NCBI RefSeq assembly: GCF_004151235.1
Contig: NZ_JUIV01000001.1
Location: forward strand, 310,001 to 374,000
Source of the DNA: Flavobacterium anhuiense
GTDB lineage: Bacteria; Bacteroidota; Bacteroidia; Flavobacteriales; Flavobacteriaceae
DNA length: 64,000 nucleotides
Direction: 5' to 3'
In this document: positions 3,555 to 50,769 of the stretch, piece after piece
How the letters are laid out: each line of letters opens with the position of its first letter
Position numbering within the stretch: the stretch's first letter is position 1
Position numbers and translations under genes: made by a program
The notes under the pieces: generated by a model
Databases searched by the model: none
What the model was told of the DNA's origin: nothing
The model's input: the letters and a program-made list of their open reading frames with translations, nothing else

Positions 3555-3573
3555 TTTTAAATACCAATATTTT

Positions 3574-3615
3574 AAAATCCAAATTCCAAACTAATTGGAA
3601 TTTGGATTTTTTTTT
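3574..3615 (+). terminator. Rho-independent terminator after the lipoprotein pair
   Basis: A perfect 16-bp inverted repeat (3574-3589 with 3595-3610) has a 5-base loop and runs into nine T residues. The stem core is AATCCAAATTCCAA / TTGGAATTTGGATT. Confidence 0.9.
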
Positions 3616-3719
3616 GAATTGAAATAAGATTTGGGACTTGGGATTTTAAAATAACCTATTAAATTGATAGGAAAATAAAAGTTTTAACGATTTATAGGTT
3701 AAAATTGGAAATAACTATT

Positions 3720-3727
3720 TAAATTTG
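3720..3727 (+). promoter_or_regulatory. -7 element of the metNIQ leader transcript
   Basis: TAAATTTG matches TAnnTTTG exactly. No convincing -33 TTG lies at the normal spacing (the nearest, 3705-3707, is only 12 bp away). Transcription would start around 3733, a few bases before the first ATG of the short leader ORF. Confidence 0.5.
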
Positions 3728-3756
3728 CACTCGCTATGAAGAAAGAGAACCAGAAA

Positions 3757-3825
3757 ATGAATAATTATTATCGTTGCAGTATGATGTACTGTGTTGCTGT
3801 AATGGCGTTTATTGATCTGGCTTAA
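3757..3825 (+). CDS. Short Met/Cys-rich leader peptide upstream of metN
   Basis: A 22-codon ORF (or 29 codons from an in-frame ATG at 3736) lies between the -7 element at 3720 and a terminator-type hairpin at 3851-3893. From the 3757 start the peptide contains Met at positions 1, 9, 10 and 16 and Cys at 7 and 12, with the core RCSMMYCVAVMAF. Met and Cys are rare residues, so a Met/Cys-rich micro-ORF followed by a terminator just ahead of a methionine importer has the layout of a translation-controlled attenuator. I prefer the 3757 start because the 3736 ATG would be almost at the transcript end. This is inference from arrangement and composition, and no antiterminator pairing is obvious by eye. 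Confidence 0.45.
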   Translation: MNNYYRCSMMYCVAVMAFIDLA

Positions 3826-3850
3826 TATATAAAATGATAAAATTTATTTC

Positions 3851-3893
3851 GAAAGAGCCTTTCAACTAATTTATGAAAGGCTTTCTTGTTTTT
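3851..3893 (+). terminator. Hairpin and T-tract between the leader ORF and metN (possible attenuator)
   Basis: GAAAGaGCCTTTCA (3851-3864) pairs with TGAAAGGCTTTC (3874-3885), with one bulged A, and is followed by TTGTTTTT. The hairpin sits 25 bp after the leader stop codon and 12 bp before metN, where a simple end-of-gene terminator would make no sense unless it is regulated. Confidence 0.65.
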
Positions 3894-3905
3894 AAACCGT
3901 AAAGA

Positions 3906-4937
3906 ATGATTGAATTAAAAAATGTAACCAAAACGTTTCATCAGAAAGACAGAATTGTTGCTGCTTTATCTGATGTTTCTTTAAAGGTTCCTGAGGGAAA
4001 AATTTTTGGTGTAATTGGAACTTCCGGAGCGGGAAAAAGTACGCTGATTCGTTGCGTGAATTTGCTGGAAAGACCAACTTCTGGCGAAATTATTGTTGAT
4101 GGCAAATCTTTAATGCAATTATCAAACGCAGAATTGGCAATTGAGAGAAGACAAATCGGAATGATTTTTCAGCACTTCAATCTGCTTTCTTCAAGAACAG
4201 TTTTTGATAATGTGGCTTTTCCGTTAGAATTGACTGGAACTTCAAAAAGCGAAATCAAAACGCGTGTTTTAGAATTATTGCAATTGGTTGGTTTGGCAGA
4301 AAAAGCAAATGATTATCCTGCAAGTCTTTCTGGAGGACAAAAACAAAGAGTTGCCATTGCAAGAACTTTAGCCAATAATCCGAAAGTGCTTTTGTCTGAT
4401 GAAGCTACAAGTGCGCTTGATCCTGCAACAACAAGATCGATTTTAAATTTATTGAAAGACATCAACAAACGACTAAATATTACCGTTTTGCTGATTACGC
4501 ACCAAATGGAAGTGGTAAAATCGATTTGTGATGAGGTTGCAGTAATCAGTCACGGAAAATTGATAGAGCAGGGAAGTGTGGGTGAAATCTTTGCAGATCC
4601 GAAACATGAATTGACAAAAGAATTTATTTCTTCTTCGCTTCATATTGAAATTCCGTCTGTTTATCAGGAGAAATTGCAAAAAGAAGATGACGGGAGTTTG
4701 AATCCGTTATTGAAGCTGGAAATGACTGGAAAATCGGTTAACGAGCCTGTTATCTCAGAAGTTTCAAGACTTTTTGATACCGATTTCAAAATCGTAAGCG
4801 CACAAATGGATCAGGCTGGCGAAGTGAATTTTGGCGTGATGCTGATTGAACTTTCAGGAAAACGCGAAAATTACGATGCGGCGATTCAATACTTTAATTC
4901 AAAACATATTAAAACAGAAATTTTAGGTTATGTCTGA
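3906..4937 (+). CDS. metN: D/L-methionine ABC importer, ATP-binding subunit
   Basis: This 343-residue protein is the full length of MetN. It has Walker [10 protein letters not shown] at about 38-46, the ABC signature LSGGQ at 141-145, Walker B with [11 protein letters not shown] at about 162-172, and the family-typical [19 protein letters not shown]. Residues from about 265 to the end form the C-terminal NIL domain that senses methionine and inhibits transport in E. coli MetN. The gene overlaps metI by 8 bp, and metQ follows, so metNIQ forms one operon. The encoded complex imports methionine across the inner membrane using ATP. Expression probably depends on the leader and hairpin just upstream. 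Confidence 0.95.
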
Positions 4938-5583
4938 TTCTCTTATAGATTTATTGTTAAAAGGAACATGGGAAACCATTGTTATGACTTTTGTATCGGG
5001 CTTTTTTGGTTTTTTATTAGGATTGCCAACAGGAATTTTACTGTTCTTAACCCGTAAAAATCAAATTCTGGAACAGCCTGTTTTAAATAGAACATTATCG
5101 GTTGTAGTGAACGTTTTTCGTTCTATTCCGTTTATTATTCTAATCGTTTGGATGATTCCGTTTACACGTGCAATTGTTGGAACTTCAATTGGCGTTAGTG
5201 CGGCTTTGGTTCCGTTAAGCATTGGTGCAGCACCATTTATTGCCCGATTGGTAGAAAACAGTTTGCTAAGTCTTCCATCAGGATTAATTGAAGCGGCAAG
5301 AGCATTGGGCGCAACGCCTTTGCAAATTGTGTACAAAGTATTATTGCCAGAAGCTTTACCTTCTTTAATCAACGCGGCTTCAATTACTTTAATCACACTT
5401 GTAGGCTATTCTGCAATGGGCGGAGCTGTTGGAGCAGGAGGTTTAGGACAAGTTGGTTATCAATACGGATATATTGGTTACGATGCTGTGACAATGAATT
5501 CGGTTTTGGCTTTATTGGTCATCTTGGTATTTGCGATTCAGTTTGCGGGAGACAGATTATCAAAACGATTTGATCATCGATAA
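4930..5583 (+). CDS. metI: Methionine ABC importer, permease subunit
   Basis: This 217-residue permease has five hydrophobic segments and the EAA loop that contacts MetN ([20 protein letters not shown] at about 120-139). It shows the MetI-type pattern [19 protein letters not shown] and [13 protein letters not shown]. It overlaps metN by 8 bp and precedes metQ by 43 bp, which is the usual metNIQ order. It forms the inner-membrane channel as a homodimer. Confidence 0.95.
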
Positions 5584-5626: not shown

Positions 5627-6439
5627 ATGAAATTAAATATTTTAAAAACTATCGGGATATTTGCTTTGTCTTTTGTTTTGGTTAATTGCGGAAACAAAAA
5701 AAATAATGATCCTCATTTTATAAAAGTGGGAGTTGCTTCTGGACCAGAATTGAAAGTGGCTGAAGCAGCTAAAAAAGTAGCAAAAGAAAAATTCGGATTG
5801 GAAGTAGAATTGGTTTCTTTCAACGATTACGTAATTCCAAACGAAGCTTTAAGTCAAGGCGATATTGACGCAAATGCTTTTCAGCACAAACCATATTTGG
5901 ATGAGCAATCAAAACAAAGAGGTTACAAATTAGCCATTATCGGAAATACATTCGTATACCCGATTGCTGGTTATTCTAAAAAAATAAAAAGCCTTTCTGA
6001 ATTGAAAAACGAAAGCACGATTATTATTCCAAATGATCCAACAAACGGTGGACGTTCGTTATTGCTTTTACAGAAAAATGGATTATTGAAATTAAAAGAT
6101 GGCGTTGGTTTATTGCCAAAAGTAACAGATATTGTTAGCAATCCTAAAAACTTAAAAATTTTAGAATTAGAAGCGCCTCAATTGCCAAGAGCTTTAGATG
6201 ACCAAAATGTTTCTATCGCGATTATCAACAATACTTTTGCTTCTGCAGCTGGATTGGTTCCTTCTCGTGACGCTTTGTTTGTTGAAGATAAAGATTCGCC
6301 TTATGTAAATTTGGTAGTAAGCCGTGAAGACAATAAAAACGAAGAAAAAGTAAAACAGTTTTTACAAGCTTTTCAATCTCCAGAAGTGGAGAAAGCAGCT
6401 GAGCAAGAATTTAAAGGCGGTGCTGTAAAAGGCTGGTAA
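5627..6439 (+). CDS. metQ: Methionine-binding lipoprotein
   Basis: This 270-residue NlpA/MetQ family protein has an N-terminal lipoprotein signal with the lipid-attachment cysteine at 21 (lipobox LVNC). The mature protein has family motifs such as KVGVASGPE, NAFQHKPYLDEQ, the IPNDPTNGGRSLLLLQ ligand loop, and a final GGAVKGW. It is periplasmic and membrane-anchored, and delivers methionine to MetI. It is the last gene of the metNIQ operon. Confidence 0.95.
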   Translation: MKLNILKTIGIFALSFVLVNCGNKKNNDPHFIKVGVASGPELKVAEAAKKVAKEKFGLEVELVSFNDYVIPNEALSQGDIDANAFQHKPYLDEQSKQRGYKLAIIGNTFVYPIAGYSKKIKSLSELKNESTIIIPNDPTNGGRSLLLLQKNGLLKLKDGVGLLPKVTDIVSNPKNLKILELEAPQLPRALDDQNVSIAIINNTFASAAGLVPSRDALFVEDKDSPYVNLVVSREDNKNEEKVKQFLQAFQSPEVEKAAEQEFKGGAVKGW

Positions 6440-50513: not shown

Positions 50514-50538
50514 TATCGAAGAAAATTTATAACATGAT

Positions 50539-50637
50539 ACTTATCCAGAAAGACTGAGGGAATAGGCCCAATGAAGTCTTAGCAACCTGTTGCCGAATAA
50601 GGTGCTAAATCCTTCCGCTAAATGCGGGCAGATAAGA
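50539..50637 (+). ncRNA. SAM-I-type riboswitch aptamer
   Basis: The conserved SAM-I core is visible: CCAGAAAGACTGAGGGA, then GGCCCAATGAAGTCTTAGCA, ACCTGTTGCC, GGTGCTAAATCC and a final GCGGGCAGATAAG. The outer stem P1 is CTTATC (50540-50545) with GATAAG (50631-50636), and the classic TGAGGGA, AGCAACCT and GGTGCTAAATCC segments are at their expected places. It senses S-adenosylmethionine and normally represses methionine/cysteine metabolism genes. Two AU-rich hairpins follow (AGATTT/AAATCT near 50639-50656 and TTAAGAT/ATCTTAA near 50659-50683), and the second ends 5 bases before a small ORF. Confidence 0.92.
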
Positions 50638-50688
50638 AAGATTTCTCCGTAAATCTGTTTAAGATCATCCAATTAAATCTTAATTAAA

Positions 50689-50769
50689 ATGAAAGCAGAA
50701 TCTATTTTATACGCAGGTTATGAACTCTTGAATTCCATTTTTGAAGAAAACGCTTTTGCTTTTTTCTGA
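50689..50769 (+). CDS. 26-codon ORF directly after the riboswitch
   Basis: An ATG five bases after an AU-rich hairpin opens a 26-residue frame (MKAESILYAGYELL ... ENAFAFF) ending in TGA at 50767. It has no cleavable signal, no cysteine and only the initiator methionine. It could be a leader peptide coupling riboswitch state to the genes 110 bp downstream, or the decayed start of a former target gene. The coding status is uncertain. Confidence 0.4.
   Translation: MKAESILYAGYELLNSIFEENAFAFF

Follow-up and report, generated by a model that had tools for sequence, protein, structure and literature searches.

Results and Discussion

Organization of the Region Upstream of metNIQ

The window analysed in this work, a stretch of 64,000 nucleotides from Flavobacterium anhuiense, contains the metNIQ genes of a methionine ABC transporter preceded by a short open reading frame (ORF) and a predicted intrinsic terminator. 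The relevant features are as follows (positions are those of the window; the three genes were assigned with NCBIfam models, all above cut-off).

3655–3671, no strand: palindrome CCTATTAAATTGATAGG, candidate operator at about −69 from the predicted transcription start
3720–3727, plus strand: predicted −7 promoter box TAAATTTG, without variation across 61 distinct sequences
3736–3825, plus strand: leader ORF of 29 codons and a stop codon (MKKENQKMNNYYRCSMMYCVAVMAFIDLA), found with 63 of 63 close metN orthologues
3750–3754, plus strand: segment 1, CCAGA, partner of segment 2 at 3816–3820
3781–3804, plus strand: putative control codons Met16-Met17-Tyr18-Cys19 and Met23 (MMCC in most relatives)
3816–3823, plus strand: segment 2, UCUGGCUU, overlapping the leader stop codon, partner of segment 1 or segment 3
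3854–3863, plus strand: segment 3, AGAGCCUUUC, the terminator 5′ arm, partner of segment 2 (antiterminator) or segment 4
3875–3893, plus strand: segment 4, the terminator 3′ arm with its U-rich tail (computed fold)
3906–4937, plus strand: metN, methionine ABC transporter ATPase (TIGR02314, 544 bits)
4930–5583, plus strand: metI, methionine ABC transporter permease (NF008049, 385 bits)
5627–6439, plus strand: metQ, methionine-binding lipoprotein (NF008285, 434 bits)
50538–50638: SAM-I riboswitch, the sole RF00162 match in the window, preceding ResA-like and SufS-like genes

A first-pass annotation had placed an ORF of 22 or 29 codons between a −7 element and a hairpin with a T-tract ending 12 bp before metN, and these coordinates proved exact: the terminator stem is formed by 3854–3863 and 3875–3884, the T-rich tail runs to 3893, and metN starts 12 bp further on, at 3906. 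The count of four methionines in 22 residues given there is correct for the ORF read from the internal ATG at 3757, which also contains two Cys codons. The hairpin was not listed by a simple terminator scan of the window, probably because its loop measures 11 nt and the scan permits 8. The computed fold of segment 3732–3910 was more stable than that of 200 out of 200 shuffled sequences (z −2.93). Met and Cys together account for 6 of the 28 codons following the start of the leader ORF, as compared with 1.9% in MetNIQ (binomial p 1.3 × 10−5); a stricter control gave a weaker result, at least six Met plus Cys codons being present in 104 of 14,427 open-frame shuffles (out of 200,000).

The sequence TAAATTTG fits the −7 box described for sigma-A of F. 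psychrophilum, TAnnTTTG, which spans −12 to −5 (PMC9723704). The position of this box places the predicted transcription start at about 3732, and with the ATG at 3736 the 5′ untranslated region would be only about 4 nt long. Leaderless mRNAs are given as 5.5% in F. psychrophilum (PMC9723704), so a nearly leaderless start would be uncommon, not odd. In addition, a strong terminator-like palindrome was observed at 3574–3610, 3′ of the preceding gene, which suggests that the leader promoter begins a separate transcript.

Conservation of the Leader ORF in Flavobacterium

Genes for metN were found at E ≤ 1 × 10−120 in 75 of 398 genomes of the genus, and the upstream DNA of 74 of them was examined (G391, whose contig starts 21 nt before metN, was left out). 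At the named Flavobacterium loci the MetN identity was 91–92%. The leader ORF with the 29-codon start was present in all 63 metN orthologues of at least 90% identity, its ATG always lying 8 nt past the TTTG. The internal Met8 is retained in just 36 of the 63, and therefore the conserved start is that of the 29-codon form, the longer of the two versions initially proposed. This conservation is decisive comparative support for the leader ORF being real.

In the alignment of the 63 leaders, the putative control columns were occupied as follows: M17 in 48, M18 in 59, C19 in 60, C20 in 57 and M24 in 57. Conservation of the Met codons, which the first-pass annotation had named as a check on its proposal, was thus confirmed within the genus (Met18 and Met24). 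The corresponding codons of the window (Met16, Met17, codon 18, which is Cys in most relatives, Cys19 and Met23) form islands of low variation amid freely varying codons. The Cys at codon 18 changes silently (TGC in 40 and TGT in 11 of 61 sequences), in agreement with selection on the amino acid. Among the departures, L171, which belongs to the close orthologues, has lost Met-Met and one Cys, and L165, L169 and L170 have lost Met-Met and retained Cys-Cys; Met24 is present in all four. In the Cys20 column, Trp, Arg or Tyr was found in six of the 63. A Tyr codon, of which the attenuation reading developed below gives no account, is conserved in 56 of the 63 leaders.

Upstream of the 11 more distant metN genes of the genus (65–75% identity), no ATG-initiated ORF of 10–50 codons with Met-Met or Cys-Cys was found within 620 nt in any case, and a search for SAM riboswitches before these genes gave none.

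Complementary RNA Segments

For the analysis of pairing, identical sequences were merged, reducing the 63 leaders to 61 (alignment A1). Two elements are invariant in all 61: GGCU at the end of the ORF (3819–3822, within CTG-GCT-T) and GCCUUUC in the terminator 5′ arm, the base preceding the latter being A in 54, G in six and C in one. GGCU is complementary either to segment 1 (CCAG) or to GCC in the terminator 5′ arm. In ten of the 63 leaders the frame stops upstream of GGCU, which is nevertheless retained, and there it is the RNA, not the peptide, that would be under selection.

In alignment A1, 96.7% of the cells of the terminator stem were paired, each of the 61 sequences forming 9–11 of the 11 pairs, and only one pair was changed on both sides (A-U to G-C, in four sequences), a compensatory hairpin change of the kind that had also been suggested as a check. 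For the antiterminator 97.3% of the cells were paired, and no covariation beyond that of shuffled alignments was detected in the Flavobacterium A1 set, because this element barely varies. Pairing between segments 1 and 2 comprised 91.1% of the cells, a value equalled by none of 500 shuffles; three of its pairs were changed on both sides, a number reached by 11 of the 500 shuffles. These counts for the 1:2 pairing cover the Flavobacterium metN leader. All three alternatives of the trp type (1:2, 2:3 and 3:4) are thus possible in the metN leader.

When segment 4 was omitted from the calculation, the GG:CC core of the antiterminator was present in the minimum-energy fold of all 63 leaders. The mean energy of the antiterminator was −6.1 kcal/mol versus −15.0 kcal/mol for the terminator, and consequently the antiterminator would have to win kinetically. 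The leader stop codon begins between −10 and +10 nt relative to GGCU in all 63, and the last Met or Cys codon ends 14 nt before GGCU in 46 of them (range 8 to 26). The footprint of a ribosome extends about 12–15 nt downstream. A ribosome with its A-site codon 14 nt away would just spare segment 2, and one located at the stop codon would cover it. In nine of the 63 leaders a Met or Cys codon ends 8–9 nt before GGCU, and a ribosome stalled there might mask it.

A Second Leader Upstream of metY

In the same genome, a pattern search gave MKTIAKRNMMCCEMMQMCIPICCCQK and a terminator at G000:C2:548954, upstream of a short ORF and metY, which encodes O-acetylhomoserine sulfhydrylase (TIGR01326, 646 bits). 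This second leader is recorded as follows.

L287:2455–2535 (G000:C2:548954–549034): metY leader MMCCEMMQMCIPICCC, followed by a terminator, with a 7-bp candidate antiterminator

A search with the metY leader in 121 genomes of the genus gave matches at E ≤ 0.5 in 37. The leader was present in 28 of the 30 loci read, preceding metY in all 28; L316 and L319 were without the leader peptide. All 21 metN-leader genomes up to G120 were among the metY-leader matches, G042 by a weak match alone at a locus left unread. At the level of the order, matches at E ≤ 0.01 were obtained in 14 of 346 genomes, all from this genus. The 28 loci were merged to 25 (alignment A2) and 27 (alignment A3) distinct sequences. 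In all 27 sequences, CCAAAAG, located at the stop codon, is able to pair with the terminator sequence CUUUUGG, one A-U pair appearing as G-U, and two small inner helices co-vary (A-U to G-C in two sequences and A-U to U-A in two).

The invariant Cys and Met codons of the metY leader (11, 12, 15 and 18) lie far enough upstream to spare segment 2. The last three Cys codons are too near segment 2 to spare it and are more variable; a ribosome stalled on them should mask segment 2, and these would not be activating codons. Both Cys of the MMCC motif are invariant in the metY leaders and the preceding Met is not. The presence of a leader of the same design in the same genome makes the metN leader look like part of a regulon.

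Leaders of Unrelated Sequence in Chryseobacterium and Other Bacteroidia

Leaders of the type MMMY(C/N)CMP were found in five of the 11 named Chryseobacterium loci, and a Met/Cys leader was absent from the other six. In L084, L088 and L094 the leader directly precedes metN; in L085 and L087 it is followed by what we take, from its sequence, to be an EamA-like gene and then by metN. A gene presumably of the same kind follows the leader of L250, which suggests that a second transporter is under the same control. No leader was found within the 500 nt searched upstream of metN at four out of four loci of Dyadobacter, Pedobacter and Apibacter. Six further leaders of the Chryseobacterium type came from a pattern search and constitute a biased sample, the L250 stretch being without metN.

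In the Chryseobacterium leaders, GUGG at the stop codon is complementary to CCAC, which spans the end of the terminator 5′ arm and the loop. The four pairs are present in the aligned register in nine of 11; in L226 the register is shifted by 3 nt, and L238 has three of the four. In L221 the pairing is GGAG with CUCC, two pairs being changed on both sides, and a change of this type was recognized by eye in L359. When the terminator 3′ arm was omitted, the pairing at the stop codon was part of the fold in four of the 11 leaders (L084, L085, L226 and L238); in the other seven the arm paired with a GCCUUU-like sequence just 3′ of the control codons.

In the class-wide sample, metN was detected at E ≤ 1 × 10−100 in six of 395 genomes, and in all six a Met/Cys leader and a terminator lie directly upstream of the gene (four judged by eye). 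L358 and L361 represent another family. The core of L358 is MYMCCFFM, with the candidate pairing CGUAUGA:UCAUACG, and L361 has two tandem leader-terminator units before metN (about 1165–1236 and 1311–1412), each with Met/Cys codons and a candidate antiterminator that overlaps the stop codon (GUAUCGG:CCGAUAC and CCGUA:UACGG, respectively).

For seven leaders, a 21-nt stretch at the stop codon (−15 to +6 relative to its first base) was compared with the terminator 5′ arm, and the longest run of Watson-Crick pairs was taken as the score. The arms were picked by eye, and as the search was confined to this stretch the nearness of the matches to the stop codon (they start 4 to 11 nt before it) is partly by construction. 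The 7-bp matches were equalled by few of 5000 shuffles (metY, 44; L358, 63; first unit of L361, 22) and the 5-bp matches by more (L226, 770; L221, 723; second unit of L361, 590). The pairing at the stop codon in the window, of four Watson-Crick pairs, was matched by 2081 of 5000 shuffles; taken alone it proves nothing, and the argument is the design repeated across leaders. Leaders of unrelated sequence repeat the design of the metN leader with other candidate pairing segments, accompanied by compensatory changes.

A search of the order with the ATGATGTRYTGYTGY pattern gave matches in 97 of 395 genomes. Among 90 loci inspected, 38 had the match inside a longer frame, which in 34 cases measured 151–174 codons and was apparently one protein. 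The 52 shorter frames included only seven leader-like ones with a terminator: five before metN, L250 and L251; a terminator-like hairpin was also seen at L203. In L251 (G765), a Met/Cys-rich frame (MTTNEIISNYSYINIITMMCCCSPIMQ...) with a strong terminator precedes a gene that, from its sequence, we presume to encode a TonB-dependent receptor, and this could be an attenuator of an outer membrane transporter; L251 was dropped from alignment A4.

Proposed Mechanism and Alternative Explanations

The arrangement found upstream of metNIQ contains the elements of an attenuator: a short ORF enriched in the relevant codons (63 of 63, MMCC...M), a predicted intrinsic terminator between this ORF and the first gene, a competing candidate antiterminator that would be reachable on early stalling (the preferred fold in only four of the 11 Chryseobacterium leaders), and a 1:2 pairing for the untranslated leader. 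On the basis of this anatomy and of the comparison between genomes, the metNIQ leader is best read as a transcription attenuator of the trp/his type, mediated by the ribosome and carrying both Met and Cys control codons, a reading to which we assign a probability of about 0.8. It is by far the best interpretation of the data, and the regulatory response itself is a prediction. As originally annotated, attenuation was ascribed to methionine; the attenuator is upheld by the comparison, and the amino acids sensed would be methionine and/or cysteine, given the conservation of the Cys columns (60 and 57 of 63).

According to this model, the transcript would begin about 4 nt upstream of the leader start codon, with the ribosome trailing the polymerase. 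With ample Met-tRNA and Cys-tRNA, the ribosome would reach the stop codon and mask segment 2 (CUGGCUU), so that the 3:4 terminator forms and metNIQ is off. If Met-tRNA or Cys-tRNA were scarce, the ribosome would stall at Met-Met-Cys-Cys or at Met23, leaving segment 2 free to pair with segment 3; the terminator would not form, and readthrough would switch metNIQ on. In an untranslated leader, segment 2 would be sequestered by segment 1 and the terminator would form by default.

Cysteine might be the main signal, with the Met codons secondary. Such a weighting would explain the conservation of Cys19 and Cys20, the persistence of Cys-Cys after the loss of Met-Met in L165, L169 and L170, and the invariant Cys pair of the metY leaders with its variable preceding Met. 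However, Met18 and Met24 are equally conserved, Met24 being kept in L165, L169, L170 and also L171, Cys20 is replaced by Trp, Arg or Tyr in six leaders, and the operon imports methionine; we regard a leading role of cysteine as possible and rather doubtful. An arrest of the ribosome by the nascent MMCC peptide, in response to an effector (methionine or SAM) and not to tRNA starvation, is improbable. Preservation of the core at the amino acid level would fit it, as would the conserved Tyr11 besides the Met and Cys codons and the IPxCCCQK sequence mostly retained in the metY leaders, but the order and spacing of the core differ by family (MMCC, MMMYCCMP, MYMCCFFM and MMAYCCMMM), which suits codons better, the residues directly N-terminal to the core are highly variable, and an abundant effector would switch the transporter on when it is unneeded.

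The palindrome at 3655–3671 is conserved upstream in the 63 orthologues (consensus tCTAtTA..TTGATAGG). The box pattern gave three exact matches in the genome and, with one mismatch, 28 matches versus 14 for a reversed control. The second exact match (L332, near 1501–1515) lies between genes that, from their sequences, we take to be msrA-like and aminotransferase-like. A regulator of the Rrf2 family (CymR-like, below the model cut-off), encoded in a sulfur cluster (L289:2963–3373), may bind this palindrome. Control of the promoter by a regulator acting at 3655–3671, with the leader having no role, would agree with this conservation, with the recurrence beside the msrA-like gene and with related palindromes recognized by eye before metN genes that have no leader ORF. 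It leaves unexplained the conserved ORF, the position of its stop codon and the complementary segments, and is very improbable as a substitute for attenuation, though it may act in addition. The ORF could, finally, encode a functional small protein, for example a metal-binding one, in a unit of its own with an ordinary terminator, metN being expressed from another promoter or by readthrough. The occurrence of the ORF in 63 of 63 leaders and of a terminator after it would be accounted for, but the C-terminal part is disposable (ten of 63 frames stop before GGCU, three of them with an 8-nt alignment gap), GGCU and its distance from the stop codon are maintained despite the shortened C-terminus, and segment 2 is complementary to the terminator in leaders unrelated in sequence. 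A separate unit of this kind is hardly to be expected.

Extending the attenuation reading beyond the window, we lean towards a family of Met/Cys attenuators whose targets would be metNIQ in several Bacteroidia lineages and, in Flavobacterium, metY, with SAM-I riboswitches serving other methionine genes of the same genome. On balance we would also expect that within such a family one leader of the MMCC type reads both amino acids and that the pairing segments have been renewed repeatedly and the leader doubled once (L361).

Comparison with Known Regulatory Systems

The trp and his attenuators of Proteobacteria are ribosome-mediated and consist of a short ORF with control codons, alternative segment pairings and an intrinsic terminator. 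The metN leader resembles them in its control-codon ORF, the stop codon at segment 2, the 1:2, 2:3 and 3:4 pairings and the terminator before the operon. It differs in having Met and Cys codons together, a predicted 5′ untranslated region of about 4 nt, a weak and AU-rich antiterminator and a transporter as the controlled operon, and in its occurrence in Bacteroidota. To our knowledge, no ribosome-read methionine attenuator has been known before, and the Flavobacterium case would make use of a nearly leaderless ORF. A search of the open-access literature, with subscription titles mostly and preprints wholly outside it, found no methionine leader-peptide attenuator.

A Cys-rich leader peptide before sulfur amino acid genes is shared with the cys operons of Actinobacteria, whose leader ORFs carry Cys runs near the stop codon; no conserved terminator hairpin is reported for them, and Rho has been suggested (PMC1262725). 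Assignment of the metN leader to these polycysteine attenuators, as there described, was excluded, since its MMCC is located in the middle of the ORF and an intrinsic terminator follows. The nearest published case is in F. psychrophilum, where operons for amino acid biosynthesis have been inferred to be preceded by leader-peptide attenuators; the main-text section on conserved 5′ elements names pheA and hisG, not met genes, and a met or cys leader is possible among the cases of its supplement (PMC9723704). Short ORFs reminiscent of leader peptides have been mentioned in Bacteroides (PMC7366714).

The metN leader also differs from the Met T-box, which has no ORF. In the Met T-boxes of Lactobacillales met genes the tRNA binds directly to the RNA, by which the charging of tRNA-Met is read. 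A T-box before a methionine transporter has been mentioned, Bacteroidetes not being named in the parts of that article covered here (PMC2965389).

Relation to SAM-I Riboswitches

Most of what is known about methionine control in bacteria concerns SAM riboswitches, Met T-boxes and repressors; the SAM-I riboswitch acts on methionine genes by premature termination. A search of Rfam at 3560–3960, including gathering-level and weak matches (E up to 1), gave nothing credible, neither SAM-I nor T-box. The metN leader was thus excluded as a SAM-I riboswitch (RF00162); lacking a match to the SAM aptamer, it would have the short ORF as its likely sensor. The genome has three SAM-I riboswitches (RF00162), none of which was found before metN or metY. 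One is that of the window, and the other two precede a MetX-like gene and the N-terminal part of a methionine synthase (the ResA-, SufS- and MetX-like and methionine synthase assignments have scores under the curated cut-offs). The coexistence of two mechanisms of methionine control, which the first-pass annotation had proposed, is therefore correct at the sequence level.

A ribosome-read leader would measure charged tRNA, the form in which methionine and cysteine are finally used, and not SAM. In a genome with both kinds of element one could ask directly whether a given gene responds to SAM or to translation, and in Bacteroidota the leaders would be ready-made reporters of starvation for sulfur amino acids. 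They would also offer a well-populated case in which the logic of an attenuator is preserved while its pairing sequences are replaced.

The SAM-I riboswitch at 50538–50638 precedes the ResA-like and SufS-like genes and not a methionine gene, and a short ORF (MKAESILYAGYELLNSIFEENAFAFF, 50689–50769) is located just after it. Matches to the Rfam Flavo-1 RNA were observed near metN and metH regions (L171:364–444 and L288:3879–3958, both on the minus strand).
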